From IMG/VR virus record IMGVR_UViG_3300032315_001707, positions 1-23,644 of that record: DNA of 23,644 bases; one strand, 5' to 3'. The notes under the pieces are model-generated. The model was not told where the DNA came from. It saw only the letters and a list, made by a program, of their open reading frames with translations, and did not search any database. Below, piece after piece: positions 2,586 through 18,005 of this stretch (position 1 is its first letter; the number at the start of each line of letters is the position of its first letter). Source of the DNA: a virus. Position numbers and translations under genes: made by a program.

Positions 2586-3452
2586 ATGTTTACAGCTCTA
2601 TTAGCATTCACAGCCTTACTGGTAGCAGGAAGTGCAGCTTATTTTTCAGTCCTTGGTATTGCAACTTTATTCTCTGGGCACTTCTGGTCGGTCATTATTA
2701 TGGCTGGGTCCTTAGAGTTAGGTAAATTAGTAGCTACCTCTTTCTTATATCGTTATTGGAACAAGGTGGTTTGGTTTTTAAAGGTATATATGATAATGGC
2801 TGTATTGGTTCTCATGGGTATTACCTCCCTAGGTATCTATGGTTATCTGTCATCGGGTTACCAGGTTAATGCCGGTAAGACTGAGCTCATTGATAATAAG
2901 GCCTCTCTTATTGTACAGCAAAAAGATAACATCACAAAAGAGGTTGAACAGATTAACTCTCGTATTAATACTCTTAATGATGCTCGTAAGTCTCAAGAAA
3001 CTCGTTTACCTCAAATGTCTCGTCTAGCAGCTAGACCTGTTTATGAGGATATGGCAAGATCAGCTGAAGAAATCAAAGGCTTAACAGCCCGGGTACAAGA
3101 GCTTCAAACTACAGCATTTGAGAAAGATAACGAACTTATTATTTTAAACTCTGAAGGTAATGAAGTGCATGATATTGGCACCTTTAAGTTTGTAGCGGAA
3201 TCTGTTGGCCTACCTCTTGATACTGTTGTAAAGCTTTTTATCTTGATTATTGTTTTAGTATTTGATCCCTTAGCGGTGTCCCTGGTATTAGCATATAACA
3301 TTGCTAGAGGTGGTTCAATATTAAAAGAAACTAAACAGCTTTTAGTTGATCAACCTATCCCGGCTCGGACAAAAACTATTATAACAGAAGAGATAACAGA
3401 AGAGGTTATACCTGGTTCTGAAAAGACAAGAAAGTATTCTTCAAAGGCCTAA
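2586..3452 (+). CDS. Membrane protein with central coiled coil
   Basis: The only plus-strand gene. The N-terminal third holds about three hydrophobic segments (roughly residues 1-30, 33-54 and 62-90); residues about 98-188 are a charged helical stretch likely to form a coiled coil. A fourth membrane segment lies at about 212-240 and contains VLVFDPLAVSLVLAYN. The tail is polar and ends in lysines. Similar phage proteins with membrane-coil-membrane layout are known to me from marine T4-like phages as hypothetical or coil-containing proteins; no function is established. The start at 2586 is favoured because the next Met (residue 39) would lose the first membrane segment. An exact late promoter stands 8 nt upstream, so it is expressed with the virion genes. 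Its last 12 bases overlap the 3' end of gp4, with no terminator between. Confidence 0.88.
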   Translation: MFTALLAFTALLVAGSAAYFSVLGIATLFSGHFWSVIIMAGSLELGKLVATSFLYRYWNKVVWFLKVYMIMAVLVLMGITSLGIYGYLSSGYQVNAGKTELIDNKASLIVQQKDNITKEVEQINSRINTLNDARKSQETRLPQMSRLAARPVYEDMARSAEEIKGLTARVQELQTTAFEKDNELIILNSEGNEVHDIGTFKFVAESVGLPLDTVVKLFILIIVLVFDPLAVSLVLAYNIARGGSILKETKQLLVDQPIPARTKTIITEEITEEVIPGSEKTRKYSSKA

Positions 3453-3890
3453 GTGTTTCTCGGTAAGCACAACAAACTCTGACCCCTTTTTAGTTGCAAA
3501 CTGAGTTGCCGCCTCCCACTTAGCTCTGTTTTTAACATACTCAGCTTGGCGTCTAAGAAGAGATTTTGTATTCCTAGTGGGTATAGGTGGCACAGTCTGT
3601 ACAGAGGGCTTTATTTCAACAAGGTATTTTTTAATTTCGCCATTTTTATTTCTTAAAGTTATATTAAAATCAACAAAGTAACGAGACACTCTTTGGGTAA
3701 GAGGGTTTTGATAAGGTACAATAATTGATTCAGATCCCCAGGAGGTAACAGCTGGGTTATGATCAGCCCACCTCATGAACTTAATTTCATATGATGATCG
3801 ATACAATATAGGTAGAGTACCTTTATACTTGTCTTTATTAACAGGGTTGAATATACCTTGTTTGAACTTAGATGTTCTTTTACGATTCAT
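3441..3890 (-). CDS. 4: Head completion protein gp4-like (nuclease fold)
   Basis: Corresponds to the T4 gp4 (50/65) head-completion protein, needed after DNA packaging to make heads competent for tail joining. At 149 residues it matches T4 gp4 (about 150). The N-terminal signature GIFNPVNKDKYKG (12-24) and RSSYEIKFMRWAD (31-43) is typical. A nuclease-like arrangement is visible: Glu35, Asp74 in RYFVDFNI, and VEIKPS (91-96), giving an E...D...E-x-K pattern as in TnsA/Holliday-resolvase-like PD-(D/E)xK folds. The start ATG follows the TGA of the upstream 90-residue gene with no gap, so translation is probably coupled. Its 3' end overlaps the convergent membrane gene by 12 bp. Confidence 0.88.
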   Translation of the reverse strand: MNRKRTSKFKQGIFNPVNKDKYKGTLPILYRSSYEIKFMRWADHNPAVTSWGSESIIVPYQNPLTQRVSRYFVDFNITLRNKNGEIKKYLVEIKPSVQTVPPIPTRNTKSLLRRQAEYVKNRAKWEAATQFATKKGSEFVVLTEKHLGL

Positions 3891-4163
3891 TCACCAATTC
3901 TTGCAAGAAAAGTATTTTGCTGTGCCCGGCTTAGCAGTTGAGCATTTGTGACGAGCTCTAAAAGATTTACGTTTTTTGGGATTAGACTTTTTAATTCTTA
4001 AATTAGGGTCCCCGTAATGCACTCTTTTAAGCTTACCATCCACCCTAGCACATCTCATATATTTTTTATCTGAGCGACTTGAAGACATTTGCTTTGTAAC
4101 CTTGGTGCATCTGCCACCTTTGGCTTCTGTTAATATTTCTAATACTGTGTTGTTAAAGTTCAT
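3891..4163 (-). CDS. Small basic Cys-containing protein, possible internal head protein
   Basis: A 90-residue protein very rich in Lys and Arg, with four cysteines (19, 38, 74, 87) that could bind a metal. The second half (SNPKKRKSFRARHKCS, 60-75) is a family recurring in marine T4-like phages, to my recollection as a conserved hypothetical. The N-terminus MNFNNTVLEILTEAKGG contains LTE followed by Ala at residues 11-14. This is the form of a gp21 cleavage site and resembles the short capsid-targeting sequences that send T4 internal proteins into the prohead (cut after x-A-E before Ala). Together with the strong positive charge this suggests a DNA-associated protein packed inside the head; that is inference. 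It lies between gp13 and gp4 and ends directly at the gp4 start. Confidence 0.85.
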   Translation of the reverse strand: MNFNNTVLEILTEAKGGRCTKVTKQMSSSRSDKKYMRCARVDGKLKRVHYGDPNLRIKKSNPKKRKSFRARHKCSTAKPGTAKYFSCKNW

Positions 4164-4171
4164 AAAAGTAA

Positions 4172-5032
4172 TTATCCAATAAAGAACATAGCCCCGGTCA
4201 CATCTTCATAGGTGTTCTTTAATTCCTGTTCTAAAGCGTCTCTTTCTTGAATGCCTTGTGACATAAAGTCTGAGTAGTTAACAGATCCTCCACCAAAGAG
4301 GTTTGTGCCTGAAAATTTACCTCTTACGTTACCTACAACAATTTTACACAAAGCTAAAGAGTATCTATAGATCCATCTTTCATTAATAAGATCTTTAATT
4401 GGTCTTTCAATATAACAACCAACAACACCTAGGTATGTTTGTTCAGGTATAGGTTCGGGGATAATTCTTAGGTTTTGATTCTTAGGATCAAATCTATAAT
4501 GCGGGGTCATGGCCAGTACCTTATTGCGTGTATCAATAAAACCTTTAAGTACTTCCCAGGTTGTAAGGTCGAAGCCAAAGTTACCAACCATATAAGAGGA
4601 ATAGATTTGTTGGGCCATGGCCTGCTCTAGCGTAAAGAGTGTATTAATACCTGTAGTTTCACCGTAAGTAAAAGAAAAACAATCAAGTACTCTTCTATAA
4701 GAGTTTAAATCGTAATCATATCCAGCTGATAAGCCTACAGTTTGAGACTTATACATCTCTGGGGTCTGATTAATGAGAGTTGCAACATTTAATCCTACAC
4801 CTCTTGTATATTTGGTAGAATCAAATATCAAAAATTCTTCTGTATACCCTGCATACTTGGTAAAAAATTCCATAGCTTGGGCAATGTTGTCATAGATTTG
4901 TTCATTAGCTATTTCAACGTTAACTAAGGGCTCTCCCATTTGTCTACGAATTCTTTGGGCTAGTGCATCATAACTCGTAATGATTGAGTTAAAATTGGTT
5001 GACCCAGAGGTATAACGAGGAAGTACGTTCAT
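4172..5032 (-). CDS. 13: Neck protein gp13-like
   Basis: Head-completion/neck protein that, with gp14, seals the filled T4 head and receives the tail. It has 286 residues (T4 gp13: 309). The N-terminal stretch RIRRQMGEPLVNVEIANEQI (28-47), followed by a helix IAQAMEFFTKYA, matches the gp13 pattern of a short helix, beta hairpin and an acidic E-x-x-I/D helix. The C-terminal third resembles the conserved gp13 core: IERPIKDLINERWIYRYSLA (about 209-228), then KFSGTNLFGGGSVNYSDF and a final charged helix (ERDALEQELKNTYEDV). It follows gp14 by 13 nt, the reverse of the T4 order (13 before 14). ATTAAATA and then ACTAATATG precede the start; no Shine-Dalgarno is present. The alternative is another neck component, but gp13 is the best fit. 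Confidence 0.8.
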   Translation of the reverse strand: MNVLPRYTSGSTNFNSIITSYDALAQRIRRQMGEPLVNVEIANEQIYDNIAQAMEFFTKYAGYTEEFLIFDSTKYTRGVGLNVATLINQTPEMYKSQTVGLSAGYDYDLNSYRRVLDCFSFTYGETTGINTLFTLEQAMAQQIYSSYMVGNFGFDLTTWEVLKGFIDTRNKVLAMTPHYRFDPKNQNLRIIPEPIPEQTYLGVVGCYIERPIKDLINERWIYRYSLALCKIVVGNVRGKFSGTNLFGGGSVNYSDFMSQGIQERDALEQELKNTYEDVTGAMFFIG

Positions 5033-5045
5033 ATTAGTTATTTAA

Positions 5046-5750
5046 TTATAATTCTTTTAATCCGCCGTAGTAGCCATAAATTTCAGATCTATCTGTAGCA
5101 TTTTCATCTATAATACATTCAGCAGTTTTATCATTTGATTGCGGGTAGGGCTGTACCAATTCTTCTGGGTTAACTCCTCCAGCCTCTCTTCCATATTCTT
5201 CATCATCATTGAACTGAATATTGAGAGGTTCTTTTGGTGCACCAGGTTCGGATGAGTACTCCCAGCGCTTACACTTTATTACCCACACATAATGACCCAT
5301 CAGTTGGTTAGCATTAAATTGTAAATTTTGATCATCTCTTTCAGTTATCTCATATACTGGAGCCCCTCTACCCCCAGGTCTATCTCCAAACCCTCCATAT
5401 TCAGCCATTTCAATTAAGTCTCCTGCTTTTGGCTCTCTGTAAGTACCAAACACCTCTTGAAAAGATGATAGATGTAAAATACACGTCATATCACAATCAG
5501 CCATTATGCCAAATTTAGATAACATAATGGCATCATTTGTAATATCAGTTAACATTACAACAGGACCAGCTGATAAAAACGGTGTTGTTGGGTCTTCCCC
5601 GTATAGATAAAAATGAGAAGAAAGAGTGTAACCGTGAGTGTAATAAGTTACTTCAGTACCGTAATGCTCTATCTGTTCCTTCCAGTAACCAAATATTAAC
5701 GTCCGTTCGTTTTCATTAACTACTTTATTTAAATAACGAACTTTTTCCAT
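5046..5750 (-). CDS. 14: Neck protein gp14-like
   Basis: Partner of gp13 in the T4 neck. It has 234 residues (T4 gp14: 256). The key block is EHYGTEVTYYTHGYT, then LYGEDPTTPFL and SKFGIMADCDMT (about residues 28-93). T4 gp14 has the same order: a YYVRR-type strand, then FGEDPTSRF and FSKFGMQVDD. The central part carries a predicted beta-barrel insert (EVFGTYREPKAGDLIEMAE; later YVWVIKCKRWEYSSEPGAP), as expected for a neck adaptor barrel. The C-terminal 60 residues are acidic and polar and end in DRSEIYGYYGGLKEL. The ATG is one base after the stop of the upstream gene (TAA A ATG), without a Shine-Dalgarno, so translational coupling is likely. Confidence 0.82.
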   Translation of the reverse strand: MEKVRYLNKVVNENERTLIFGYWKEQIEHYGTEVTYYTHGYTLSSHFYLYGEDPTTPFLSAGPVVMLTDITNDAIMLSKFGIMADCDMTCILHLSSFQEVFGTYREPKAGDLIEMAEYGGFGDRPGGRGAPVYEITERDDQNLQFNANQLMGHYVWVIKCKRWEYSSEPGAPKEPLNIQFNDDEEYGREAGGVNPEELVQPYPQSNDKTAECIIDENATDRSEIYGYYGGLKEL

Positions 5751-5751
5751 T

Positions 5752-6333
5752 TTAAATAGTTGCTAGTTTTTTAAAGCCCTTCTTTAAGGGATGTTTACGA
5801 TTTTTTTTATATGCAGGATCTCTTGCAATGTCTTTTAAATCTATTTTTGCTTCACCGAGAAATCTTGGCTTCTTAACCCACTTATCAGTATAAGGGTGGT
5901 AGATGGCTGGGTATCTTTCTTGATCTAAATCTCTAATTGTAGGTAAGTAATAAATAGGGTGTAAAGAGCTAGTAGCTAATCTTCCATTTATTTGCTTAAT
6001 AGTTTGAAGTACTCTCTCCTTAATCATGTCATCCAGATTTGTTTTATCAATTAGTACTAATATGTTAATAGCACATCTTTTAGACGATTCCTCCTCAAGC
6101 ACGGGTCCAACTATAAAGTATTCCCACACCCTCTTTCTACCGCCTCCATGTTCTGCAGAATTTATTATTTCAATATCTTTTAGTATTTGAGATTTAACAG
6201 CAGGTTGTAAAACAGGGTCTCCACCATCTGGAGAAAAGTACCAAATTCGAGGATCAAGAGAATTTGGAGCTACTGGGTGGGTATGATATTTGAGATAAGC
6301 TTTTTCAAATTCTTCTTCAAATAATTTCTTCAT
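5752..6333 (-). CDS. Degenerate nucleotidyltransferase-like protein in neck operon
   Basis: A 193-residue protein aligning by eye with a phage nucleotidyltransferase-like family. Visible landmarks are DPRIWYF (27-33), LQPAVKSQILKDI (42-54), then IVGPVLEEESSKRCAINILV (74-93). Active members have G-S about ten residues before D-x-D. Later HPIYY (125-129) and DKWVKKP (150-156) match the family's HPI-x-Y and D-K-W-I-K-K-P blocks as I remember them. Here G-S is G-P (76-77) and the D-x-D position is A-I-N (88-90), so nucleotidyl transfer is unlikely and a structural or binding role is more plausible. The C-terminus is very basic (KKGFKKLATI). It heads the gp14-gp13-gp4 operon and overlaps nothing; a new promoter is needed because a terminator lies just upstream. 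The family assignment is from memory and moderate. Confidence 0.8.
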   Translation of the reverse strand: MKKLFEEEFEKAYLKYHTHPVAPNSLDPRIWYFSPDGGDPVLQPAVKSQILKDIEIINSAEHGGGRKRVWEYFIVGPVLEEESSKRCAINILVLIDKTNLDDMIKERVLQTIKQINGRLATSSLHPIYYLPTIRDLDQERYPAIYHPYTDKWVKKPRFLGEAKIDLKDIARDPAYKKNRKHPLKKGFKKLATI

Positions 6334-6339
6334 ATATTG

Positions 6340-6347
6340 TATTTAAG
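6340..6347 (-). promoter_or_regulatory. Weak late-promoter-like element (CTTAAATA) for the neck operon
   Basis: The minus strand reads CTTAAATA (6/8 of the T4 late element) 6 nt before the ATG at 6333. It lies between the terminator at 6367-6386 and the first gene of the neck operon, where a promoter would be expected. Evidence is positional and weak. Confidence 0.4.
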
Positions 6348-6366
6348 CTTTTCTCTATAAACAGAA

Positions 6367-6386
6367 ACGGCCCCTTGCGGGGCCGT
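6367..6386 (-). terminator. Rho-independent terminator with GCAA tetraloop
   Basis: A perfect 8-bp stem (ACGGCCCC pairing with GGGGCCGT) closes a 4-base loop that reads GCAA on the minus strand, a stable GNRA tetraloop closed by C-G. On the minus strand it is followed by TTCTGTTTATAG, a moderately T-rich tract. It stands 22 bp downstream of the acidic-protein gene and ends its transcript. It is the clearest GC-rich hairpin noticed in the window. Confidence 0.88.
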
Positions 6387-6408
6387 CTATTAATTCTGTA
6401 AATGATTA

Positions 6409-7194
6409 TTATTTAAAGAAATCGCCTCTTTTAACAGTCGACTTAACTTCAGACTTGCCCTTTGGATTTTGATATGATTTATCATGTCCCTTGGCTGGCT
6501 TTAACTTAGGATCTGAATCAACATCTCCACCGTGTACCTTACCGCCGTGAACTTTTGGATGTCCACCAACTTTGTTACTCTTGTGTTGGAGTACCTTGCT
6601 CTTATCGCCAAGAGGTTTTAATTCTGTTGCTTCTTTAACTGGCTCTTCTTCCATTTCGAGATCTTCAACGTCATCGGCTTCTTCATCTCCGAATTCTGCC
6701 TCTTCTTCTGACTCTTCTTCTCCGCCAGTTTCTTCAGAAATTTTATCAAGGATAGTCTGAAGATGGTCCATTACTGACTTAAGATCAGAAACGAGATCTG
6801 TTACTTCGTCTTTTTCACCTTCGAGCTCATCCATCATTTCGTCATCTGAGGTAGGTACTTCAACTTCCATTTCCATGCCCATTTCTTCTTCACCTGGAAG
6901 CTGCTCATTAATTGTTGCTTTGAAAAGCTTTTCAAAAGAGCCTTCAAATGATTTTGTTGGTTTTTCCATAGAATCTTTTAAAACTTTAGGTTCGTGCACT
7001 TTAGTACCATGCATCTCTTCTGGGTCTTCTAAATCCTTCTTGACCTTTTCAGCGCCGCCTGCTACAAGTCCTACTTTGCCACCTTTAGCAATTTCTTGAT
7101 GGCCGGCAGGGACTACTACGTTTGATGCTTTACTTGATTCTTCGTTAAGAAGAACTTGAGTTGAGTAAATTTCTTCGAGAGGATTTTTCTTCAT
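6409..7194 (-). CDS. Highly acidic protein, candidate prohead core/internal protein
   Basis: A 261-residue protein with no recognised enzyme domain. Residues about 98-187 are extremely acidic (GEEEMGMEMEVEV; GEEESEEEAEFGDEEADD), enclosing a predicted helix at 120-155 (VTDLVSDLKSVMDHLQTILD). The C-terminal 70 residues are basic and Gly/His/Lys-rich (HPKVHGGKVHGGD). The N-terminus MKKNPLEEIYSTQVLLNEES contains LNE at 16-18, and INE (95-97) and ISE (152-154) also fit the (L/I)-x-E cleavage rule of gp21. The gene has its own exact late promoter and its own terminator, and its promoter/leader nearly copies that of gp22. These facts suggest an abundant head-assembly protein comparable in role to acidic T4 core proteins such as gp67, but homology is not shown. 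The plus-strand ORFs inside it are shadows of the acidic codons. Confidence 0.85.
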   Translation of the reverse strand: MKKNPLEEIYSTQVLLNEESSKASNVVVPAGHQEIAKGGKVGLVAGGAEKVKKDLEDPEEMHGTKVHEPKVLKDSMEKPTKSFEGSFEKLFKATINEQLPGEEEMGMEMEVEVPTSDDEMMDELEGEKDEVTDLVSDLKSVMDHLQTILDKISEETGGEEESEEEAEFGDEEADDVEDLEMEEEPVKEATELKPLGDKSKVLQHKSNKVGGHPKVHGGKVHGGDVDSDPKLKPAKGHDKSYQNPKGKSEVKSTVKRGDFFK

Positions 7195-7202
7195 ATGGTG
7201 TA

Positions 7203-7210
7203 TATTTATA
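7203..7210 (-). promoter_or_regulatory. Late promoter TATAAATA for the acidic-protein gene
   Basis: An exact match to the T4 late element on the minus strand, 8 nt before the ATG at 7194. With T4 spacing only 2-3 nt would precede the start codon. The region 7198-7221 equals the gp22 promoter region at 1666-1687 except for a 2-nt insertion. Confidence 0.75.
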
Positions 7211-7233
7211 TTTATTCTAAAGTGATTGTTTTT

Positions 7234-7455
7234 TTAAGGGACTATTAGGGCTGAAAGAGATAAAAAGGAAGTACTTAATGAAGTATAATTAGTTCCAGGG
7301 GCTCCAACAGCTGTAAGAATACTAATTAAAGTATTAAAATTACTATTAACGGTTTGACATGAAGTATCTAAAGCATTAAAATTATTATTAATAGTAACTA
7401 GGGAATCTCCTATGTACTCATTGTCATATATTTGTGTTGTGAATTCTCTGGCCAT
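7234..7455 (-). CDS. Short fibre-like protein with IG-(D/N)-SL-x-TIN module
   Basis: A 73-residue protein whose first 33 residues parallel the N-terminus of the RCC1-propeller protein just upstream: EYIGDSLVTINNNFNAL here and ECIGNSLITINSNFDTL there, at the same distance from the Met. A second NSNFNTL follows 14 residues later, so the helix is internally duplicated. The remainder is a hydrophobic, Ser/Leu-rich tail ending SLSALIVP. It starts 6 nt after the upstream stop, with no Shine-Dalgarno. It may be a small tail or fibre component carrying only the attachment or trimerisation helix, or a remnant left by loss of a C-terminal head domain. The clean frame and coupled position favour a real gene. 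Confidence 0.72.
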   Translation of the reverse strand: MAREFTTQIYDNEYIGDSLVTINNNFNALDTSCQTVNSNFNTLISILTAVGAPGTNYTSLSTSFLSLSALIVP

Positions 7456-7461
7456 AATTTT

Positions 7462-9207
7462 TTATATTACTATTTGTACTAAGCTTGGTACGGTGGTAAC
7501 GGCAGGGGAAGCATCCACACCTAATTGACCTGACGCTACTTCATCCCAGCCCCAACCTAAAACTTTTCCGGTATTTAATAAAGCTAAGAAGTTTGCCTTA
7601 TTGGTAACGTCGTTATTTGTACTTCTAATTTGAATAGGGTAACCTAAACCAGGGTTAAATGCAACCCTTTGAAATGTTGAATTAGTAGCAGTTGTCGTAC
7701 CAATACCTATTAAGCCGGAACCGCCATAACCTGCGGCCCATAATCTATTTGCTGTATCAAGTACTAGGGTAGTCTTTTGAGTGCCGTTACCAGCTACAAC
7801 AATTTGACTCACCTTTACCCCGGGGGTGCTTAACCATGGCCATGCTGTGTTTTCAGATACTGCTACTGCTGTTGCTGTTGTACCTAGGCCTAACTGCCCG
7901 TAAGTATTATTACCCCAGCATTTAACTTTATAGCCTGAAACGCCATCTCGTACTAGTGCCCAGCATGTGATCGCATTTGCATCAATGTGTACTGCTACAT
8001 CTTCTACAAAATCTGAATCTGTAAACCCATTAACTCTTTCAAACTGTACTGAATTAGCAGCATTTGTTGTACCAGTAACAGCCCCATTAGTACCACGACC
8101 TGTAGCATATAGAGTACCATCTTTAAGAGTTACAAAGGTTGTTATTTGATCAGCTGTGCCTCCAACCCTGACATTGTTAACCCGATAACCGAATGGTAGC
8201 CCAGTTATTAATCTAAAAGAATCTATATTAGGTATTCCAAGATCTCCGATACCGGCTTGACCGTCTTGGTTTCTACCAACTACATAAAGTTTATCTTGAG
8301 TATCGACAACGAAGGTTGTTGTTGCATTATTATTACCAGCTGAAGTTATTAAGCGCCCTGTCCCTGTAAATGATACAGATTGAAGTGGAGACGCTATAGG
8401 GTTAGTTGTTCGTGGTATACCGGCCTGATCTCGACCATTAGCACCCCATACAAAAACTCTACCATCCTCTGTTAGGGCAAAAATTGTTAGTAAAGCAGTA
8501 ACAGCTCCTGTTCCTGTAGCTAATTGTACTATTTTATTACCTGATAGTTTAGCAGCAGCGTAACCAGCTACAGGGTTAGTAACAGCGTTAATCGGTATTG
8601 TGTTTTCTCTGATTGCATTAACAAAAGTAAAGATAGGGGTAGGTGTTGTTGAGGTTGTACCTATACCCAATTGTCCTGATGAGTTTGTTCCTGCTGAATA
8701 AACCCGACCGAAAGATGTAATAAGGTAAGTGCAATTATGCTGAGAGTAAACTTTTGATATACCCTCTCCTAACTCTAAGGGTGGGGTAAAGCCAGCAACA
8801 CGAGGGGTAAAGACTTTTTTATCAGCAAGACCTATACCTAGCTCTCCGCGCTGATTAAGCCCTACAACTCTTAAAGAACCATCATTAAGAATAAAAAAGT
8901 TATCTCTACCACCACCTGAGTTTGTACCCTGCTCTTCAAGTCCTGAAACTTTTACTAATTCAACACCGGGTATATTAACCTGTGCACGATTTCCTTGAAC
9001 AATTGTATTTACCCCGGCACCTATAAAATTAACAGTACCAATATTAATACCAATCGGGTTACCTTCATCCTCTATAGCTACTCCAGTTTCATTGACACTA
9101 ATATCACAAATAGCATTTTTTAAAGTATCAAAATTACTATTAATTGTAATTAGAGAATTACCTATACACTCGGAACTAGGAATTGTTGTAATTTCAGGAC
9201 AGGCCAT
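7462..9207 (-). CDS. Fibre/adhesin protein with RCC1-type beta-propeller
   Basis: A 581-residue protein. Residues 1-35 hold the IG-N-SL-I-TIN-x-NF module shared with the next gene. A linker (about 36-88) includes a beta segment with IVQGNRAQVNIPG. From about residue 90 to the end there are RCC1 repeats: GLNQRGELGIG (116), GTNSSGQLGIG (173), GANGRDQAGIP (255), GRNQDGQAGIG (311), GRGTNGAVTG (370), GNNTYGQLGLG (432), GYGGSGLIGIG (493) and WDEVASGQLGVD (554). Each is preceded by a strand such as LYVVG or VFVWG. RCC1 repeats make a beta-propeller, usually of seven blades; eight motifs are visible. In a phage this is most likely a receptor-binding or structural head domain on a fibre, by inference. 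An exact late promoter lies 13 nt upstream of the start. No membrane segment or catalytic motif is seen. Confidence 0.9.
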   Translation of the reverse strand: MACPEITTIPSSECIGNSLITINSNFDTLKNAICDISVNETGVAIEDEGNPIGINIGTVNFIGAGVNTIVQGNRAQVNIPGVELVKVSGLEEQGTNSGGGRDNFFILNDGSLRVVGLNQRGELGIGLADKKVFTPRVAGFTPPLELGEGISKVYSQHNCTYLITSFGRVYSAGTNSSGQLGIGTTSTTPTPIFTFVNAIRENTIPINAVTNPVAGYAAAKLSGNKIVQLATGTGAVTALLTIFALTEDGRVFVWGANGRDQAGIPRTTNPIASPLQSVSFTGTGRLITSAGNNNATTTFVVDTQDKLYVVGRNQDGQAGIGDLGIPNIDSFRLITGLPFGYRVNNVRVGGTADQITTFVTLKDGTLYATGRGTNGAVTGTTNAANSVQFERVNGFTDSDFVEDVAVHIDANAITCWALVRDGVSGYKVKCWGNNTYGQLGLGTTATAVAVSENTAWPWLSTPGVKVSQIVVAGNGTQKTTLVLDTANRLWAAGYGGSGLIGIGTTTATNSTFQRVAFNPGLGYPIQIRSTNNDVTNKANFLALLNTGKVLGWGWDEVASGQLGVDASPAVTTVPSLVQIVI

Positions 9208-9238: not shown

Positions 9239-12200
9239 TTAAGAGCAATTGGGATCAAAATAACTTAGTAAACTTTCAAAGTTACTCCATAGATACTCAA
9301 TGCTTCTATTAACTACTGCAGAGGTTACAATTTCATTTTGACCAATAACAATTTGTTCCTTAGAATAGGTTGGAGGTTTATAACCTTTGCAGCTTGTTTC
9401 ATTGAAATATAACGAACCTCTGAATAATTCTATATTGTCCCACAATCTTTGGAAGGACTTATTATATACCCAGTTTTGAACATATTCATCTTTATGAATG
9501 AGTAGATTACTTAAAGGCCAGTATGATACTGGTAACGGTCCTTTAATACTTTCAAGTTCCATTAGATCAATATATTTTAAAATTTTATCTCCTGAAACTA
9601 CAAGAGTGTTTCTATATTCATCTTGATAAACATCTTGTATATTTGTAGCACAGGTCTTGTTGTCAATTAAACGACCTGCATAAACACCGTTTCTAAAATA
9701 CCTTGCAACTGTATTATTAAAAACAATATAAATTATCTCTTTATTGTAATTAGAGTTTATCTTTATAGGTTGAGCTTCTTTGCTTACTGTATCTGTAAAT
9801 AAATATTCAAATATGAATGTACCTTGCTGATTATATACTCTAACCCCGGTTTGAGTTAAACAGTGAAGGTTATTTTCAGAATCTGTAGTTACACTAATTG
9901 GTGGTGTTGTGCGAAGGCTTGAATCAATTATTGTTATAAGCCAAGTACCGGTATTAGAATAACCCTTCACACATTTATTACCTGTATCTGCAATCCATAC
10001 ATTATCAAAATTATCAATACAGATATCATTAGGTTTAGAGAATCCTTGAGTAGATTTTGAAGTGCCAAACCCACCCCATGAAAGGAATAGATCAAACGGT
10101 ACTGGATCAGTTAGGTTAATATTATAAGATGCTACTCGGTTTAGAGTGCCATCTAAAACAAATAGTTTGTTTTGACTATCAAGAGCAATTCCTCGTATAT
10201 CTCTAAACGCAAACAAGTCATCAAGCAATAATCTTGAGGCTACGAACGTACCTGAGTAGTCAGAAGACAATACTTTAACTTCATTAGTAAGGGCAGCATA
10301 CAGAATATTATTCTTACTAACTATATCTTTATAGGTGCAACTGGAATTAATCGTGCAGTTAACGATTGGGTCATAATATGTATTAATTTTTTCTATATTG
10401 ACATTCCATACTCCCTCTTCACAGGCTGAACCAATTAAAATACTTCCATCTTGAGTTATACATGGCTCAAAGACCCATTTTTTATTATAAGATCTATTAC
10501 TCTTAGTGCTGCTCCAAGTTACTGCAGTTCTTGAGTTAGCGGAAGTTCTAGCTGACCATTTCCATGATATACAATACTTGCCTATCTTTTCAGGATTCTG
10601 CTCTTGTGGGGTACAAATATAATCATTCCAAGAACAGCAGCTTGAGAGTCTACCAGTTGTAGTTATTGAAGGAAACTCCGGTGTTACATTTTGTACATCT
10701 TCCCAAGTTACTGTATTAGGGTTATCTGTTACAAGACAGTCTAAACTATCCCAAGTATAAATCGGGCAAGTTGTATCTAATACGGGTGGTATGCCTAGCC
10801 ATCCAAAAAATTCAGCAGGTCTGGTCTCATATCCGCGACCTCTTGTTTCTAGATATTCTAAATTTTCATAGAACTTAGCAAATACAGAATTTATATTATC
10901 CTCGTTTACCCACTCATTAGGAGCAACTTTTGGTACCTCTGGCCATGGTAACTGTAAAGGTGTTTCTGGTGTACGATAGTTTTCTGTATCTATAGTATCA
11001 TATTCAGCAACAACTTTGATAATATTAGTAAAGGTAGAACTTACTTCAGCCGGTACAGCACTCGTATAGTAAACAGTGCTAGTAATCGTCTTATAACCTA
11101 TATCGGTGTAGGTTGCAGTTATGTTACTGTATAGAGTTGATCCACTTAAAGTTATTACTTCATTCTTATCATCTAAATTAACTTCAATTCGATCAACAGC
11201 ATTAAATCCTACTGATATATTTTGAAATTGAACTTGAGTGCCTGTTAGTACATATCTGTTTGAGGTATATACTTTAAAATCACCTCGAGAGTAAATTGAG
11301 CAGTTTTTACTATCTGAAAAGACATACTGCTTAGTTTGCCAATCGAAAGGTTCAGCAGATATAACGGTACTAACAATTTGACTTCCTTGAAGATATATTG
11401 GTGTATTATTATTAATACTAGCTGTATAAGGGTTTAAGCCATCTTTAGAGTATTGTAATTCATAAACATAATCTATATCATTAGATGATATTTGAGTTTC
11501 AACTGACCACGAAGGAGTTGAGAGAGACCAGGTTAATGGTCCGCCAGTACTTCTATTAGGTGTTCTTTCTGCAGAAAGATTAGTAGAGGCCTCGGCGCGC
11601 CATTTTTTAGGGTAAGGCCCTGATAGAGCAGAAGTTAAGGTATTAAGAGTTACACCAAAGGGTGCTGTGGTTATTGATGTAACTAAACACTGAGTTGTAT
11701 ACCAGGAGGAAGGCTTACCTGTTAGTGTAGAAGTTATATCAACAAAATTTGCAGTTGTACCAAAACGGGGTGTAGTTATAGGTGCTGAGAGATGAACAAA
11801 GGTAGACCACCTATAAATTAAATCATATAAACCATAACAAAAGTCTAAAGTACTAGCTGTATCTCCGGATAAAGATACCCTTAAAAAGGCTGCATAACTT
11901 TTAAGGGAGTCATCAGTTGGTAGAAAGTCGGGACACTGAGTGAACCCGGAACTAAAAGAAGATGTAGGAGGCACATAACTTACGATCTGTATACCGTTTC
12001 GGTATTTAGTATTACGACTAGCTAGATCTTCTGTATTATAATAGAACGGATAAGGCAATTCTTCACCAGTACTATCATCATAATAGTAAAATGGACCTGA
12101 AGATAAAATAGTTCCATCTGAAACTACTAACTGTATAGGTATCTTGGGGTAAAAATTAAGTTCAGTTGGAATAGATACATCGTAGTAGCCTGAACTTATA

Positions 12201-15200
12201 ATAGATGAAGCTTGATAAAACCCTAAATCTGTAGAACCAATAGTCCAATAATATGCTGATGCTCCAGTTCCATTGGCAGAAAGATTAATAGTTTCAGTAT
12301 GACCTTCTCCGTAAAAGCAGGGGCCGGGGGTGAGGGTATAGCTAGAACTATTAGCAAGAATAGGACCAACTTTAGAGCCAGAGCTGTTAAAATAATTTTT
12401 TGCGAATGCTATAAAGTCTGCTGATAAAAGAGTATTAACAAAAATAGCTGAAATGCTATTTGAGTAAGTATGAGGGGTATACCATTTTCGTCCTACTGTT
12501 TCACCTAAAGAATCAAACGTCGAACTAGCCGAGACTACAACCTGATAGCTACTAACTCTTGGTATACTTGTATCAAAACTACATAAAGTTGTAAAAATTG
12601 TAGATGCAGTTATTGGTAGATATAAAGTAGGGGTTGTTTGATTATTGAGATAAATGGAAGCTGTATTATAATAAAGAGCTCTGGGTACAGATAAGGTACA
12701 GATATACGGAGTTGTAGTTCCAGTTTGTAAGTAATTTAATTGGGCACCCCAAACGTATACTGTATCATTAGAAGTAGCATCTGAAGAGATGGAATTTGTA
12801 TCAGTCGTTACCCCGAGATAGAGTTTATCTGTTTCTGTAGATGTTAAAGTAAAAGTTGCGCAACATCTTGACCAACCTCTAGCTCCTTCTAGGGTAAAAT
12901 TACTCTGTCTATAATCTCCCTTTGAGTTTAGAGATATTACATTATTAGCAGCTCTTCCCTTATACGAGGTAAAGCTACCACCTGGAATTAAAACATCTCC
13001 TTCTTTTGTTATACCAGAAGATAAAAATATGGTATTTACAGTATTGTTAAATCCTAATTGGGTATTAAAAGTAGAATCTATATTATTTCTAGTAGTATCA
13101 AGTCGATATAAACGATAATAGGGAGCGCCTGCAACATCGGTAAAGTCTCCTCCAACATATAAGCCCGTATTACTTGAGTTTAAAATTAAGCTTCTAACAC
13201 CTATATCCCCAACAGTATAAGGAGATATAACTGCGCCATTACTAGCTAGTTTAATTAAATTTTTAGTAGAGGTACTATTATAATAACTAAACACTCCACC
13301 GATGTATATATTGCCCGCCGAGTCTACTTGTATAGAGAATATAGAACCATACTTTTTGACACCGCCTTCAATAAAACTATAAACGCCAGGCCTTAACCCT
13401 AAGGTTGTATCCCTAGCTCCCGTTGAAGATGTTCGAGCTATATTTTTTGTATTTGTCCTACCAGCCCAGTTTCTAAACGAGCCGCCTATTAAAATAGTGC
13501 CTGCTGGTTCAAACTCTATAGCTCTAACAACACCAACAAACCCTCCATCATCAGTGGAGGCTCCTGTTCCCACATTAAAAATAGCATTATCAACTAATGC
13601 ACCATTAGGGTTAATTACAGCAAGTCCGTTACGAGTGGCGCTATCATAGGTAGTAAAACTACCACCTACAAAAATAATATTACGAGTAGTATCTGGTTTA
13701 ATTATTTCAACAGGTGAGCTGCCGAAGTAAGTGTTTGTACTTCCAGTAAATCTGCTCGATGATGCAAGATCTCCAGTGCCTGTTAAACATACTATATTTG
13801 TAACCGCTGTACCTCTGTATGATGTAAAGTTTCCACCTACATATAGACTATTACCTGAAACTGCTATTGTTTTAACTGCACAAAAATCTCTACCAAAAAC
13901 TACAGGTCCTGAAAAACCGGAAAGTGTTAAACCGGATGTTAGGGGCCCGTTACCGTTTAAGTCTACAGCACATGCACGACCTACATTTACACCATTACAA
14001 GTAGTAAAACTACCACCTAAAAAGAATCTGTTTCCTGATAGTACTATAGTATTGAGTGCACCATTTAAGCTTACATTAAAGAGAGGGGTGGACCCAGGTA
14101 CCGGTGGTGGTTCGTAGGTTTCTATAGATACTGAATCCCAAGACCCGTTGTTATAGGCTATTCCGTCCTGTATGTCAAAAACTGCAGAACCTTTATTAAA
14201 ACCATCAAAATATAAATACCCGCCGCCTGAGGGATAAGCAAAGACTGAGTAGGTATAGGTTTGAGGGAGTAGTTGTACTGCATCTCGAGCTATAAAATGA
14301 TCTTTGTTAGAAACAGATTCAACTTCAAAAGTAATAGTGGAATCGTCAACACTTATGCCTAAGGTTTCTCGACTAATTGTTATACTGTCTTGAGGTTGAA
14401 AGTATAGCCCGCCATTCGTTGTCGAGAGGGTTGACACTGTACTATTGCTAACTGTGATAGTAAAAATTGCGCTTACACCGCCACCTGTTGTTGTATATCC
14501 AGACTGAGGTACTACATAGGTTTGATTAGTGTGTAAAAAGTAATTTGGTAAACCAGCAGTTGTAACATTTGTAATAGTACTAATGGTATTAAAGGGAGTA
14601 CCTGAACTGGGTATTAAAAATGTGCCTCCAGTTTTATTATCAGGGGTTACTATTTGATTAGGTAAGCTTGCTGATAATGATGAACCTGTTGACCAGACGT
14701 TAGTATTTGAAAATTGTTCACTGCCAGTTAAAAGGTTGGTAAGGTTAAGAAAAGAATCATCAAAAACTACAGATAGCCGTGCGTTATAGGTACCTGTTGC
14801 TTGACGATAAAAAATATTACTATTATCAGTATTTTGGTAATTTATATACAGGATAGGTGGAGGTATATTAGGAAAGAGATCATAAACTGCAGTAAGAGCG
14901 GTAGTACTACCTATATTTTCTTCGATATCCTCAACTCCTGTTAATAATGTAACCCTGAGTATTGTACTCTGAGAAGGATCGGCATTAATTACGCTTTTAT
15001 AATCGTATGTATCAGTAGTTATACTAAAGATAATAGAACTTAAGCTAGTAACAGCCCCTAAGGTTTCTGCTATATAAGGGGTTCCTGATGGTAGACGAGC
15101 TGTAACAAAAGAGGTATCAAAACTCCATTTAATGGTTTCATCGTTATCGGGTATACCTGGACCGACAACAATAGCAGATAGAGACCTTACTGCAGGTTCA

Positions 15201-15244
15201 TTATCATACCTAACTGCACTTAATGTTATATTACCAAACCCCAT
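9239..15244 (-). CDS. Giant 2001-residue fibre/adhesin with two beta-propellers
   Basis: Visible order: an N-terminal beta region (1-165). A carbohydrate-binding-type beta-sandwich follows, its first half at about 170-376 (NLLTGSEQFSN, QTYTYSVFAYPSGGGYLYFDG) and its second half at about 787-850 (GWSRCCATFTL, VYVWGAQLNYLQ, TPYI). Between the halves is a seven-blade delta-60/DUF5122-type propeller with GG-x-F at 410, 470, 527, 587, 649, 698 and 755. A small beta module (about 214-313) interrupts the first half. PKD/Ig-like beta regions lie at about 970-1050 and 1335-1415. A Cys-rich region covers 1490-1640 and an NHL-type propeller about 1640-1895 (CIDNFDNVWIADTGNKCVKG). The C-terminal helices at 1918-1994 are duplicated. 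Such stacks of binding domains indicate a host-contacting tail protein; the exact virion position is unknown. The ATG is 7 nt after TTTAAATA. Confidence 0.9.
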   Translation of the reverse strand: MGFGNITLSAVRYDNEPAVRSLSAIVVGPGIPDNDETIKWSFDTSFVTARLPSGTPYIAETLGAVTSLSSIIFSITTDTYDYKSVINADPSQSTILRVTLLTGVEDIEENIGSTTALTAVYDLFPNIPPPILYINYQNTDNSNIFYRQATGTYNARLSVVFDDSFLNLTNLLTGSEQFSNTNVWSTGSSLSASLPNQIVTPDNKTGGTFLIPSSGTPFNTISTITNVTTAGLPNYFLHTNQTYVVPQSGYTTTGGGVSAIFTITVSNSTVSTLSTTNGGLYFQPQDSITISRETLGISVDDSTITFEVESVSNKDHFIARDAVQLLPQTYTYSVFAYPSGGGYLYFDGFNKGSAVFDIQDGIAYNNGSWDSVSIETYEPPPVPGSTPLFNVSLNGALNTIVLSGNRFFLGGSFTTCNGVNVGRACAVDLNGNGPLTSGLTLSGFSGPVVFGRDFCAVKTIAVSGNSLYVGGNFTSYRGTAVTNIVCLTGTGDLASSSRFTGSTNTYFGSSPVEIIKPDTTRNIIFVGGSFTTYDSATRNGLAVINPNGALVDNAIFNVGTGASTDDGGFVGVVRAIEFEPAGTILIGGSFRNWAGRTNTKNIARTSSTGARDTTLGLRPGVYSFIEGGVKKYGSIFSIQVDSAGNIYIGGVFSYYNSTSTKNLIKLASNGAVISPYTVGDIGVRSLILNSSNTGLYVGGDFTDVAGAPYYRLYRLDTTRNNIDSTFNTQLGFNNTVNTIFLSSGITKEGDVLIPGGSFTSYKGRAANNVISLNSKGDYRQSNFTLEGARGWSRCCATFTLTSTETDKLYLGVTTDTNSISSDATSNDTVYVWGAQLNYLQTGTTTPYICTLSVPRALYYNTASIYLNNQTTPTLYLPITASTIFTTLCSFDTSIPRVSSYQVVVSASSTFDSLGETVGRKWYTPHTYSNSISAIFVNTLLSADFIAFAKNYFNSSGSKVGPILANSSSYTLTPGPCFYGEGHTETINLSANGTGASAYYWTIGSTDLGFYQASSIISSGYYDVSIPTELNFYPKIPIQLVVSDGTILSSGPFYYYDDSTGEELPYPFYYNTEDLASRNTKYRNGIQIVSYVPPTSSFSSGFTQCPDFLPTDDSLKSYAAFLRVSLSGDTASTLDFCYGLYDLIYRWSTFVHLSAPITTPRFGTTANFVDITSTLTGKPSSWYTTQCLVTSITTAPFGVTLNTLTSALSGPYPKKWRAEASTNLSAERTPNRSTGGPLTWSLSTPSWSVETQISSNDIDYVYELQYSKDGLNPYTASINNNTPIYLQGSQIVSTVISAEPFDWQTKQYVFSDSKNCSIYSRGDFKVYTSNRYVLTGTQVQFQNISVGFNAVDRIEVNLDDKNEVITLSGSTLYSNITATYTDIGYKTITSTVYYTSAVPAEVSSTFTNIIKVVAEYDTIDTENYRTPETPLQLPWPEVPKVAPNEWVNEDNINSVFAKFYENLEYLETRGRGYETRPAEFFGWLGIPPVLDTTCPIYTWDSLDCLVTDNPNTVTWEDVQNVTPEFPSITTTGRLSSCCSWNDYICTPQEQNPEKIGKYCISWKWSARTSANSRTAVTWSSTKSNRSYNKKWVFEPCITQDGSILIGSACEEGVWNVNIEKINTYYDPIVNCTINSSCTYKDIVSKNNILYAALTNEVKVLSSDYSGTFVASRLLLDDLFAFRDIRGIALDSQNKLFVLDGTLNRVASYNINLTDPVPFDLFLSWGGFGTSKSTQGFSKPNDICIDNFDNVWIADTGNKCVKGYSNTGTWLITIIDSSLRTTPPISVTTDSENNLHCLTQTGVRVYNQQGTFIFEYLFTDTVSKEAQPIKINSNYNKEIIYIVFNNTVARYFRNGVYAGRLIDNKTCATNIQDVYQDEYRNTLVVSGDKILKYIDLMELESIKGPLPVSYWPLSNLLIHKDEYVQNWVYNKSFQRLWDNIELFRGSLYFNETSCKGYKPPTYSKEQIVIGQNEIVTSAVVNRSIEYLWSNFESLLSYFDPNCS
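9560..10342 (-). other. NHL-type propeller region of the giant fibre protein
   Basis: Residues about 1635-1895 contain successive NHL-like blades: RGIALDSQNKLFVLDGTLNR, NDICIDNFDNVWIADTGNKC, and SVTTDSENNLHCLTQTGVRV. Each blade has the D-x-x-(N/D)-x-(L/V)-(F/W/H) strand and a following x-V-x-x-Y or similar strand. Blade number is uncertain (at least four). Confidence 0.72.
12887..14095 (-). other. Seven-blade delta-60/DUF5122-type propeller inserted in a beta-sandwich domain
   Basis: Seven copies of a (Y/F/L)-(V/L/I)-G-G-x-F-(T/S/R) strand occur at 40-80 residue spacing, several followed by N-x-I-A/V...G-x-x-D as in GTILIGGSFRNWAG then NIARTSSTGARDTTL. This is the delta-60 repeat pattern. 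The segment sits between the two halves of a sugar-binding-type domain (strand SVSIETYE before it, GWSRCCATF after it), so it appears to be a domain inserted in a loop. Confidence 0.78.
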
Positions 15245-15275: not shown

Positions 15276-18005
15276 TTAAACCCATTCCACAGAAATTAAT
15301 TCTGAATAAGCAGGTTTAGTGCGTTCAACGGCAGCTTTAACAGAAGCTTCGATCGTTGCGCGGGTGTTTTCATCAGTTATACTAAGTCCGGAAAGCTTAA
15401 TCTTAAAGAAAGTACTTTTTGATCCGGGTGCTTTGTGTTTAAAGAATCGCTCGATTCCTTCAATGTATTGAATTTGAGAAGTGGGTATACTCCATATTAG
15501 ATCCTCTCCTTCAAAATAGCCTTTAACAAACATATTTAAAAAGGAAGGTTTTATTGCATAATCATAAATTCTAATATTATCTATATACCCATTGAATATA
15601 AGGGCTTGAGAGTTTAACTCAGTATTTAAATTTGTAAATTTACCAGTAGGTGTGCCTATGTACAAGTCGTTTTTTCGAAGATAACTAACGGAGTAATTAC
15701 CTGGGAGTAATATTTGATCTCTTAGTCGGGTATCAACATATAAAGATAATGTACGATTTTTAAAGGTGCCTGTAATAAGGTGCCAGGTTTCATCAGTTAG
15801 ATATTGTACTGGGACTGATAGAGTAAAGGTTTTAAGAGGAGTTCCTCGTAAAGGCTTTTGAGCTATAATTTTAAACTGTAGCTGTGGGTTATTGTTGTAT
15901 AGAACTTTATTAAAAATTCTCTTCCATTCATAACCTGTAAAGTCACCTCTACCATTAAACTTCATAAAGTTTTTATCTTCTTTTTCCGGTGGTGTTAATA
16001 CTATATTAGTGCTGTCAGGTATAAAAGAGGATCGAGCTATATCTCCATCTAAAGTTACCTGATAAAGAGTTTTTTCATTACTTCTATATACTAAGCTATA
16101 CCATTGCTGTTTATTATTGGCTCTATCATATGTGTAGATAAAGCTTACATTGTTTACATCAGGCTGTCTAATACCTAGTTCAAAACTAGTTATAGCAGAA
16201 AGAGTGGTTGTATTAATCTTTGTAACGTTGTTATTGCCATAAAATACCCAAACGTTACTTTCAGGGTCTATAGTTATATTTGAGCAATTAGTAAAGTTAG
16301 TCTGTTGTACTCCATTTACAAATAAATCTCCAGAACTATCTACTACCCACTTCTTACCCCCGTTGTCGTATTTGGTATCTATACATGGTGGCTCTCTTAA
16401 AATGTTACCTGATAGATCATAGGTAAGTATACCACCGAATCCAATACTAGTACTTGTAAGGGATAGATTAACTGAACCACTCGCTGAAAATATTGAGTTA
16501 TTGACTGACAGGATTTCTTTTAAAGTGTATAAACTTCCACCACCAGGTATAAAGATGTTAGATATAGTACTTAAGCTATTAACCTGTACCTCAAAAACTG
16601 CTCCTACCCCTCGACCTGATGTTGATAACCCGGTTACAGTTGTTGTATAGGTACCCGGGACTATATTTACACCAGTATTGTAGCTGTAATTTATTTTAGT
16701 TATAGCACCATTTGTTTGGTCTACATAAGGGATAGAACTTACCCCAACAAAAGTTAAATTATTATCAAAGTAATAAAATGCTTCAGTAGTCTGTAAATAA
16801 CAACCATCAAATTGATCTATAATAAACTGTTTTGGTTCTCCAGAGATAATATATGGTTCACCGCTACTTAAACGAGGTACTGCTAAAACATCACCTAGGT
16901 GGTTAAATTTATAAATGCCTATAGGGTTACTTTTATCTAAAACTAAAACCTCATTATCGCTATTCATACTAACCTGTATAGGTGAACTTGAACCGCTTAA
17001 CTCTGGAGATATAAAGCTAATAACAGATTGAGTACTTTTATCTGAATAATTTAGCCCCTCTTGATTATAATAGTATAAATGACCGTAGAACGTTTCAGGT
17101 ATAGCAAAAAATGGGTAATACTTTAAATTATTATAAGAAATGCCGTAACCGCCATAGTTTAAGTTACCTACTAATTGTGTCGCTGGGGCAGTGCTCCAGT
17201 TTTTATTTTGTACCCATAAGTTTATAGTAAATTCATTTGGTAAATTATAATTGTCTGAATAAGAGACTTTTGCATCTAAGAAATCGTTATTATCAAAATT
17301 AAGAGCATTTCGATCAACAACACCAGGTTCGTTTGTATTTAAAACAAAACTATTTTTAAAATTTGTGATACGAAAATTATTATTATAAATTGTGTTATCT
17401 ATTCCTGAAGCTGACCAGGTTTGTACATTAAGACGCAAATTTGTTGAGAGAGGGCCTGAAAAGGTATTAATAATATTTTCAGCTGTTTTTTCACCGTTAT
17501 GAAAATACTGATAAAGAACCCCTGATTCAAGGCGGATAGAAGAAGGTATATCTATAAAAACTGGGTCATTGTCAACATATGTTTCATAAGTTAATTCTCC
17601 AAGCAGAGCATAATTGTATGTTACTTTACCAGGATTATAAAAACGATCAAACCAACGAGGTGTTTCTCCAGATAAACTATATAACCAGCTACACAGCCAC
17701 GTACCATTAGGTATATCTGTGGTTGTGCCCCAAGGGGTGGTATTGCCGTAATTACCTTGTTTTTTAAAAATTCTATCAGCCATTGCGGGTATTGGACCCG
17801 GGATAGCGCCATCCCCTACTATTTGTCCAGAAGAGAGATTCTGAGTTGTAGCATAAAGAGGTACATGAAAAAAAGTTGTACTATCTTTTTTAAATTCTAT
17901 ATCTATTGTTGAAGCCTCATAACCTAAACAAATCTTATCGTTACCATCTAATTGATTAGTACCGGTAAAGATTCTATAATAATTTCTTTGATTAAAGTTT
18001 GGCAT
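15276..18005 (-). CDS. Fibre/structural protein with split LamG-type domain
   Basis: A 909-residue protein. Residues 1-230 are beta-rich and unrecognised. A LamG/concanavalin-type sandwich starts at about 233 (LNFDNNDFLDA, LPNEFTINLWVQ) and finishes at about 680-820 (DETWHLITGTFKNRTLSLYV, LYIGT, FNGYIDNIRIYDYAI). The middle, about 316-665, is a propeller-like region with blades such as VSMNSDNEVLVLDKSN, KKWVVDSSGDLFVNG and NITIDPESNVWVFYG. Within it lies a small beta module (about 446-523, TYTTTVTGLSTSGRGVGAVF) related to one in the 2001-residue neighbour. The C-terminal 90 residues end with a helical segment (DENTRATIEASVKAAVERTK) and may contact the next subunit. LamG domains bind carbohydrates or proteins, so a host-contacting role is likely by inference. 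The start follows the upstream stop as TAA-T-ATG, without a Shine-Dalgarno; translational coupling is likely. Confidence 0.9.
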   Translation of the reverse strand: MPNFNQRNYYRIFTGTNQLDGNDKICLGYEASTIDIEFKKDSTTFFHVPLYATTQNLSSGQIVGDGAIPGPIPAMADRIFKKQGNYGNTTPWGTTTDIPNGTWLCSWLYSLSGETPRWFDRFYNPGKVTYNYALLGELTYETYVDNDPVFIDIPSSIRLESGVLYQYFHNGEKTAENIINTFSGPLSTNLRLNVQTWSASGIDNTIYNNNFRITNFKNSFVLNTNEPGVVDRNALNFDNNDFLDAKVSYSDNYNLPNEFTINLWVQNKNWSTAPATQLVGNLNYGGYGISYNNLKYYPFFAIPETFYGHLYYYNQEGLNYSDKSTQSVISFISPELSGSSSPIQVSMNSDNEVLVLDKSNPIGIYKFNHLGDVLAVPRLSSGEPYIISGEPKQFIIDQFDGCYLQTTEAFYYFDNNLTFVGVSSIPYVDQTNGAITKINYSYNTGVNIVPGTYTTTVTGLSTSGRGVGAVFEVQVNSLSTISNIFIPGGGSLYTLKEILSVNNSIFSASGSVNLSLTSTSIGFGGILTYDLSGNILREPPCIDTKYDNGGKKWVVDSSGDLFVNGVQQTNFTNCSNITIDPESNVWVFYGNNNVTKINTTTLSAITSFELGIRQPDVNNVSFIYTYDRANNKQQWYSLVYRSNEKTLYQVTLDGDIARSSFIPDSTNIVLTPPEKEDKNFMKFNGRGDFTGYEWKRIFNKVLYNNNPQLQFKIIAQKPLRGTPLKTFTLSVPVQYLTDETWHLITGTFKNRTLSLYVDTRLRDQILLPGNYSVSYLRKNDLYIGTPTGKFTNLNTELNSQALIFNGYIDNIRIYDYAIKPSFLNMFVKGYFEGEDLIWSIPTSQIQYIEGIERFFKHKAPGSKSTFFKIKLSGLSITDENTRATIEASVKAAVERTKPAYSELISVEWV
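16011..17060 (-). other. Propeller-like insertion inside the LamG-type domain
   Basis: Residues about 316-665 separate the N-terminal (EFTINLWVQ) and C-terminal (DETWHLITGTFKN) halves of one LamG-type domain. They contain NHL-like strands with D-x-x-(S/D)-(N/G)-(V/D)-(W/L) patterns. The segment is itself interrupted at about 16437-16670 by a small Gly-rich beta module (GRGVGAVFEVQV). Confidence 0.65.

Follow-up and report, generated by a model that had tools for sequence, protein, structure and literature searches.

Introduction

Through its head spike, RcGTA can attach to the host capsule (PMC7296036; PMC10218006). The fiber protein of this spike, Rcc01080 (PDB 6tb9, chain F3), belongs to the head-spike-fiber family NF048003 of NCBIfam, whose ordinary members carry a contiguous beta-sandwich. 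A contiguous sandwich is also found in E217 gp45 and Pa193 gp46 (PDB 8env and 9b45), baseplate triplex subunits whose described role is to hold the tail fiber and not to bind the host (PMC10329688; PMC11042391).

The usual description of a phage receptor-binding protein is a string of domains joined end to end. Insertion of one domain into another is known in principle, also for propellers. In enzymes of the prolyl oligopeptidase and DPP IV type, a propeller is carried between parts of another fold; there the host domain is an alpha/beta hydrolase, unrelated to the sandwich described here and not part of a phage protein. In the literature we searched, we found no published phage head nested step by step with natural precursors. 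Here, we describe a 2001-residue structural protein from an uncultured T4-like phage in which one large domain is accepted inside another, a propeller seated in one hairpin turn of a beta-sandwich of the sugar-binding type. Because living relatives keep the likely before and after states (no sandwich, sandwich plus a small module, and sandwich plus the propeller as well), the path of domain insertion can be read directly.

Results

We analyzed a stretch of 23,644 nucleotides (IMG/VR record IMGVR_UViG_3300032315_001707, positions 1 to 23,644), hereafter the window. Its major capsid gene (3-623) is ~37% identical to that of Synechococcus phage S-RIM8. The 2001-residue protein is encoded by an open reading frame (ORF) on the minus strand (9239..15244, ATG start), as are all of its parts given below, and its neighbors suggest a role in the virion. 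The proximal part of the head (residues 1-147; 14804..15244) is kept in relatives that lack the sandwich, and blastp aligned it to loci L117/L142, L119/L143, L133, and others. The distal part (residues 870-1100; 11945..12637) is contiguous with residues 1-147 in alignments of L117, L119, and L133. A very conserved motif, FYGEGHTE, marks this distal domain in the relatives examined. The remainder is a conserved core (residues 1107-2001; 9242..11926), which shares 42% identity with its L003 counterpart and ends in an NHL-type propeller (29.2 bits) and a helical C terminus. The next gene (7462-9207) encodes an RCC1-type propeller protein of 581 residues; three propeller types (DUF5122, NHL, and RCC1) occur across these two adjacent genes.

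Between the two parts of the head, a first-pass annotation of the DNA had noticed the strand motifs of a phage-fiber sandwich, in order but far apart. Each motif lies where it was reported: NLLTGSEQFSN at residues 170-180, TYTYSVFAYPSGGGYLYFDG at 329-348, and SVSIE at 371-375, followed on the C side by GWSRCCATFTL at 790-800, VYVWGAQL at 829-836, and TPYI at 845-848. We scanned the protein with NF048003 (GTA_spike_fiber; 182 positions, curated cut-off of 36 bits). The intact protein gave no match over this cut-off. Scanned apart, the unspliced residues 305-377 scored 26.6 bits at positions 42-120 and residues 789-851 scored 29.9 bits at positions 120-173, such that position 120 is where the two matches meet. 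When the raw window was searched in all six frames, two separate partial matches again resulted. With a profile made solely of ordinary copies, residue 170 onward aligned at the profile start (position 2 onward), residues 308-369 at positions 40-108, and residues 789-850 at positions 121-179. By sequence profile and predicted fold, residues 168-214 (piece A, NLLTGSEQFSN...TPDNKTGG; 14603..14743), 312-382 (piece B, six strands; 14099..14311), and 788-852 (piece C, GWSRCC...VYVWGAQL...TPYI; 12689..12883) together form a single beta-sandwich of the head-spike-fiber family. Unlike the contiguous ordinary members, this domain is broken by inserts of ~97 and ~405 residues.

Removing both inserts left a 175-residue sequence that scored 72.6 bits against NF048003 over positions 8-171 of 182 (5.7e-20), compared to 55.7 bits for pieces B and C without A. 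This spliced sequence also matched the tail protein family phrog_5939 (6.9e-13) and, over query residues 1-163, RcGTA Rcc01080 (6tb9 chain F3; 1.5e-7); all three are matches to a single sandwich family over nearly the whole length. No sequence match was found between the window sandwich and the carbohydrate-binding modules CBM61, CBM16, CBM22, and CBM4. Piece A alone scored weakly. The order A-B-C reached 80.3 bits against a profile of 12 ordinary contiguous copies, a score attained by 0 of 2,000 decoys in which one piece was replaced or shuffled. A junction scan identified 382|788 and 214|312 as the best splice points, within two residues of the joints first proposed (384/786 and 214/313). 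As also proposed, ordinary copies run the SVSIE-type strand straight into G-W: in loci L007-L021, SI(E/T/Q) leads directly into GNGWYRC. Inserts of at least 12 residues were present in 0 of 218 aligned domain matches. In a survey with 176 contiguous copies, in which loci were ranked by alignment quality and contiguous copies were therefore favored, only the window and L002 carried a domain split by hundreds of residues.

To describe the fold, we used AlphaFold models of an ordinary copy, L018, and of the unspliced window segment. The L018 model (pLDDT 91.3, pTM 0.89) has 11 strands; at the propeller joint, strands 111-118 and 121-128 are linked by a turn of two residues, and the site of insert 1 lies between strands 38-43 and 51-57. 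It superposed on Pa193 gp46 with a Z score of 22.9, on E217 gp45 with 20.0, and on the beta-sandwiches of CBM61, CBM16, CBM22, and CBM4 with ~12. The window model kept the 11 strands of the ordinary copy and their order, with the split at 377/791. On the N side these are 184-193 (as two short pieces), 208-212, 317-325, 329-338, 343-347, 353-357, 362-365, and 371-377; on the C side they are 791-799, 804-813, and 829-838. The pLDDT of this model was 68-80 in piece A; pieces B and C were mostly at 70-94 (~84-92 for the strands at 317-377, up to 94 in piece C). The model superposed on contiguous residues 198-391 of 9b45 (Z 20.0, 2.3 Å, 177 residues) and is thus predicted to form one closed sandwich. 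For the two baseplate subunits together, Z was 18-20 with the window model and 20-23 with the ordinary copy, and 9b45 was also reached by the ordinary-copy sequence profile (2e-22). Foldseek alone returned no significant match for the 691-residue model; the Z of 20.0 came from structural re-alignment of the Foldseek list. The alignment used for folding held 16 ordinary copies. Of 160 subsets drawn at random, this one did best at putting the three blocks in their correct places, and choosing it biases the model toward a closed sandwich. Split halves of ordinary copies were dropped as a guide, as MAFFT stacked the N and C halves; single copies were misaligned too.

Insert 2 (residues 383-787; 12884..14098) lies where ordinary copies have a hairpin turn of two residues and consists of a seven-repeat DUF5122-type propeller (~388-779) with short linkers. 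PF17164 (DUF5122) matched five stretches (46.2 bits, gathering threshold 27), and phrog_5490 matched at 2.6e-19. The first-pass label of "delta-60/DUF5122-type" holds for DUF5122; the delta-60 model TIGR02608 reached 19.9-21 bits compared to a cut-off of 76.5. The "complete seven-blade propeller" of the same annotation is borne out as seven GGxF-type repeats (residues 407-758, spacing 49-62) and stands at the level of sequence: the AlphaFold model, for which the propeller alignment held two sequences, did not resolve the propeller, and its confidence was mostly <40 over the N-side half of this insert. Although similar in sequence to PF17164 and phrog_5490 propellers, the window propeller differs from them in being inserted inside another domain. 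When we searched annotated phages with the whole segment, the sole match was a stand-alone propeller of 383 residues from Leptospira phage 80412-LE1. Because this stand-alone relative exists, a DUF5122-type propeller can be an autonomous unit.

Insert 1 (residues 215-311; 14312..14602) is the small Gly-rich beta module that had been described at about residues 214-313, and it does split the first half of the sandwich, between strands 2 and 3, with 214|312 as the optimal splice. It is also present in L112, L113, L135, and L136. A similar module (blastp E 0.001 over 58 residues) occupies approximately residues 430-512 (16470..16718, minus strand) of the neighboring 909-residue protein (15276-18005). 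This second copy is kept in L002 and missing from the 819-residue L003 homolog (5467-7926), which has a clean empty site. Thus, one kind of small module occurs in two adjacent genes. Among annotated phages, there was no match for insert 1, the 909-residue neighbor, or the conserved core. A Pfam assignment of insert 1 to DUF4424 (16.9-17.7 bits, cut-off 27) was taken as chance and rejected.

The nested form occurs in four phage lineages. Identity to the window is 88% in L002, 45% in L112, and 37% over residues 1-1100 in L113/L114. In contrast, L135 (1800 residues) and L136-L138 (1802 residues) represent two lineages of orthologs, in both head and core, that contain the sandwich and the Gly-rich module and lack the propeller. 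Their propeller joint, FDLYGTNIYNYGFWESGSVIITNPSDFYLSAFELENKWVRCTAIL in L135, spans 16-18 residues compared to ~413 in the window, and pieces B and C reach the NF048003 cut-off unspliced (36.0-38.6 bits in L135). The whole sandwich is missing in L117, L119, L133, L139, L141, L144, and L160, which align at residues ~1-147 and ~860-1100. The sandwich unit is absent from most relatives of the 2001-residue protein, a point overlooked in the first-pass annotation, as was the Gly-rich module of the neighboring gene.

We used the core (residues 1107-2001) to build trees. All sandwich-bearing forms, together with L133, fell into one clade (support 99/99 in the first tree and 100/100 in the second); L133 lies inside this clade yet lacks a sandwich. 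The second tree unites the propeller forms (92/96), which are joined first by the sandwich-only forms (85/92) and then by L133. The wider core tree did not resolve the branches that order these steps. The tree thus favors, without full support, a history in which the sandwich would have come first and the propeller later.

Comparing the window to L002, the propeller is the fastest-diverging part (75% identity, dN 0.172, dS 0.59). For the sandwich pieces, identity is 88-94% (dN 0.03-0.055, dS 0.20-0.46), and dN in the C-terminal core is 0.016-0.035. Since dN/dS of the propeller is 0.29, i.e., not >1, the propeller is not under positive selection on average. Its raised dS suggests some allele exchange as well.

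Discussion

We consider it highly probable that this head was built by insertion. A sandwich of the head-spike-fiber type would have entered a short connection of an older head, the small Gly-rich module would have been placed in one of the sandwich loops, and the seven-repeat propeller would have been placed in the hairpin turn that leads from the strand with SVSIE at its end to the one starting with GWSRC. The first-pass annotation had proposed loop insertion, not end-to-end fusion, and the spliced scores, the single closed predicted fold, and the orthologs with an uninterrupted joint all favor it; because of these orthologs, the case is much stronger than that annotation could make it. As the start and end of a propeller lie close together, it can hang off the turn while the sandwich closes around it. 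The propeller would then project outward as a fast-evolving contact surface, with the sandwich serving as a glycan-binding-type platform in the exposed head of a virion protein.

What such a head does is suggested by its relatives. Host capsule or glycan binding is known for the RcGTA spike only, and the window head would stand beside RcGTA by virtue of its sequence. This link and the fold link to E217 gp45 and Pa193 gp46 point opposite ways; that the nested head would be an adhesin binding a cell-surface glycan or another receptor is therefore an inference. A real possibility, if not the one we favor, is that the nested head serves a structural role, the propeller being a spacer or a site of protein-protein contact within the virion. 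The closest solved sandwiches by fold hold a tail fiber in the baseplate, and a propeller dN/dS below 1 is compatible with such a role. However, among sequence relatives of known role, the best, the RcGTA fiber, comes from capsule-binding spikes, and amino-acid divergence is concentrated in the propeller.

Another alternative concerns the direction of change. The nested head could be ancestral in the clade, with L135-L138 having lost the propeller and L133 the whole sandwich. The branches that give the order are short, with the support values and the lack of resolution in the wider tree noted above, and the joint loop of L135/L136, which has 16-18 residues rather than 2, could represent a scar. 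We nevertheless regard loss as unlikely: outside the clade, all relatives are without the sandwich and ordinary copies elsewhere are without the propeller, and in the second tree one branch sets the propeller forms apart from all others, while the adjoining branch does likewise for the sandwich-bearing forms.

That two unrelated domains merely resemble the halves of a sandwich, with the propeller joined end to end between them, is very improbable. GWxRC, YVWGAQL, and similar short motifs occur widely, and piece A scores weakly by itself, but the complementary NF048003 coordinates, the strand-for-strand match, the one closed fold, and the orthologs in which the pieces are contiguous at the propeller joint speak against it. 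An assembly chimera, conceivable for a fragment of an uncultured virus, is practically negligible, as independent contigs at 88%, 45%, and 37% identity share the architecture and both joints are in frame.

The large T4-like phages of this clade might assemble adhesin heads by serial nesting. Hairpin turns of the sandwich would then be sockets for exchangeable modules, and exchange or diversification of the propeller could leave the sandwich that carries it undisturbed; we hold this broader idea to be possible but rather doubtful. There is also a consequence for annotation: when the whole protein is put through standard family searches, the split sandwich domain is overlooked, and nested heads may for this reason be under-counted in phage genomes.

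Several smaller observations accompany these results. In L112, the nested head and the core lie in two overlapping reading frames (2713-6000 and 5940-8735), which reflects either an assembly frameshift or a real split gene. The N-terminal head domain is apparently tandem-duplicated in L135 and L136, where window residues 1-79 match twice, and in L145 and L148 the head starts ~140-250 residues later in a long ORF. A C-terminal stretch, ERFFKHKAPGSKS...KPAYSELISVEW, is conserved among the 909-residue neighbor, L004 (3847-7449), and distant relatives, and may mark a virion attachment domain. Finally, a 288-residue ORF on the plus strand of the window (2586-3452) has several apparent membrane-spanning stretches and a coiled-coil-like part, and a similar ORF is present on the minus strand of L004 (1197-2324).
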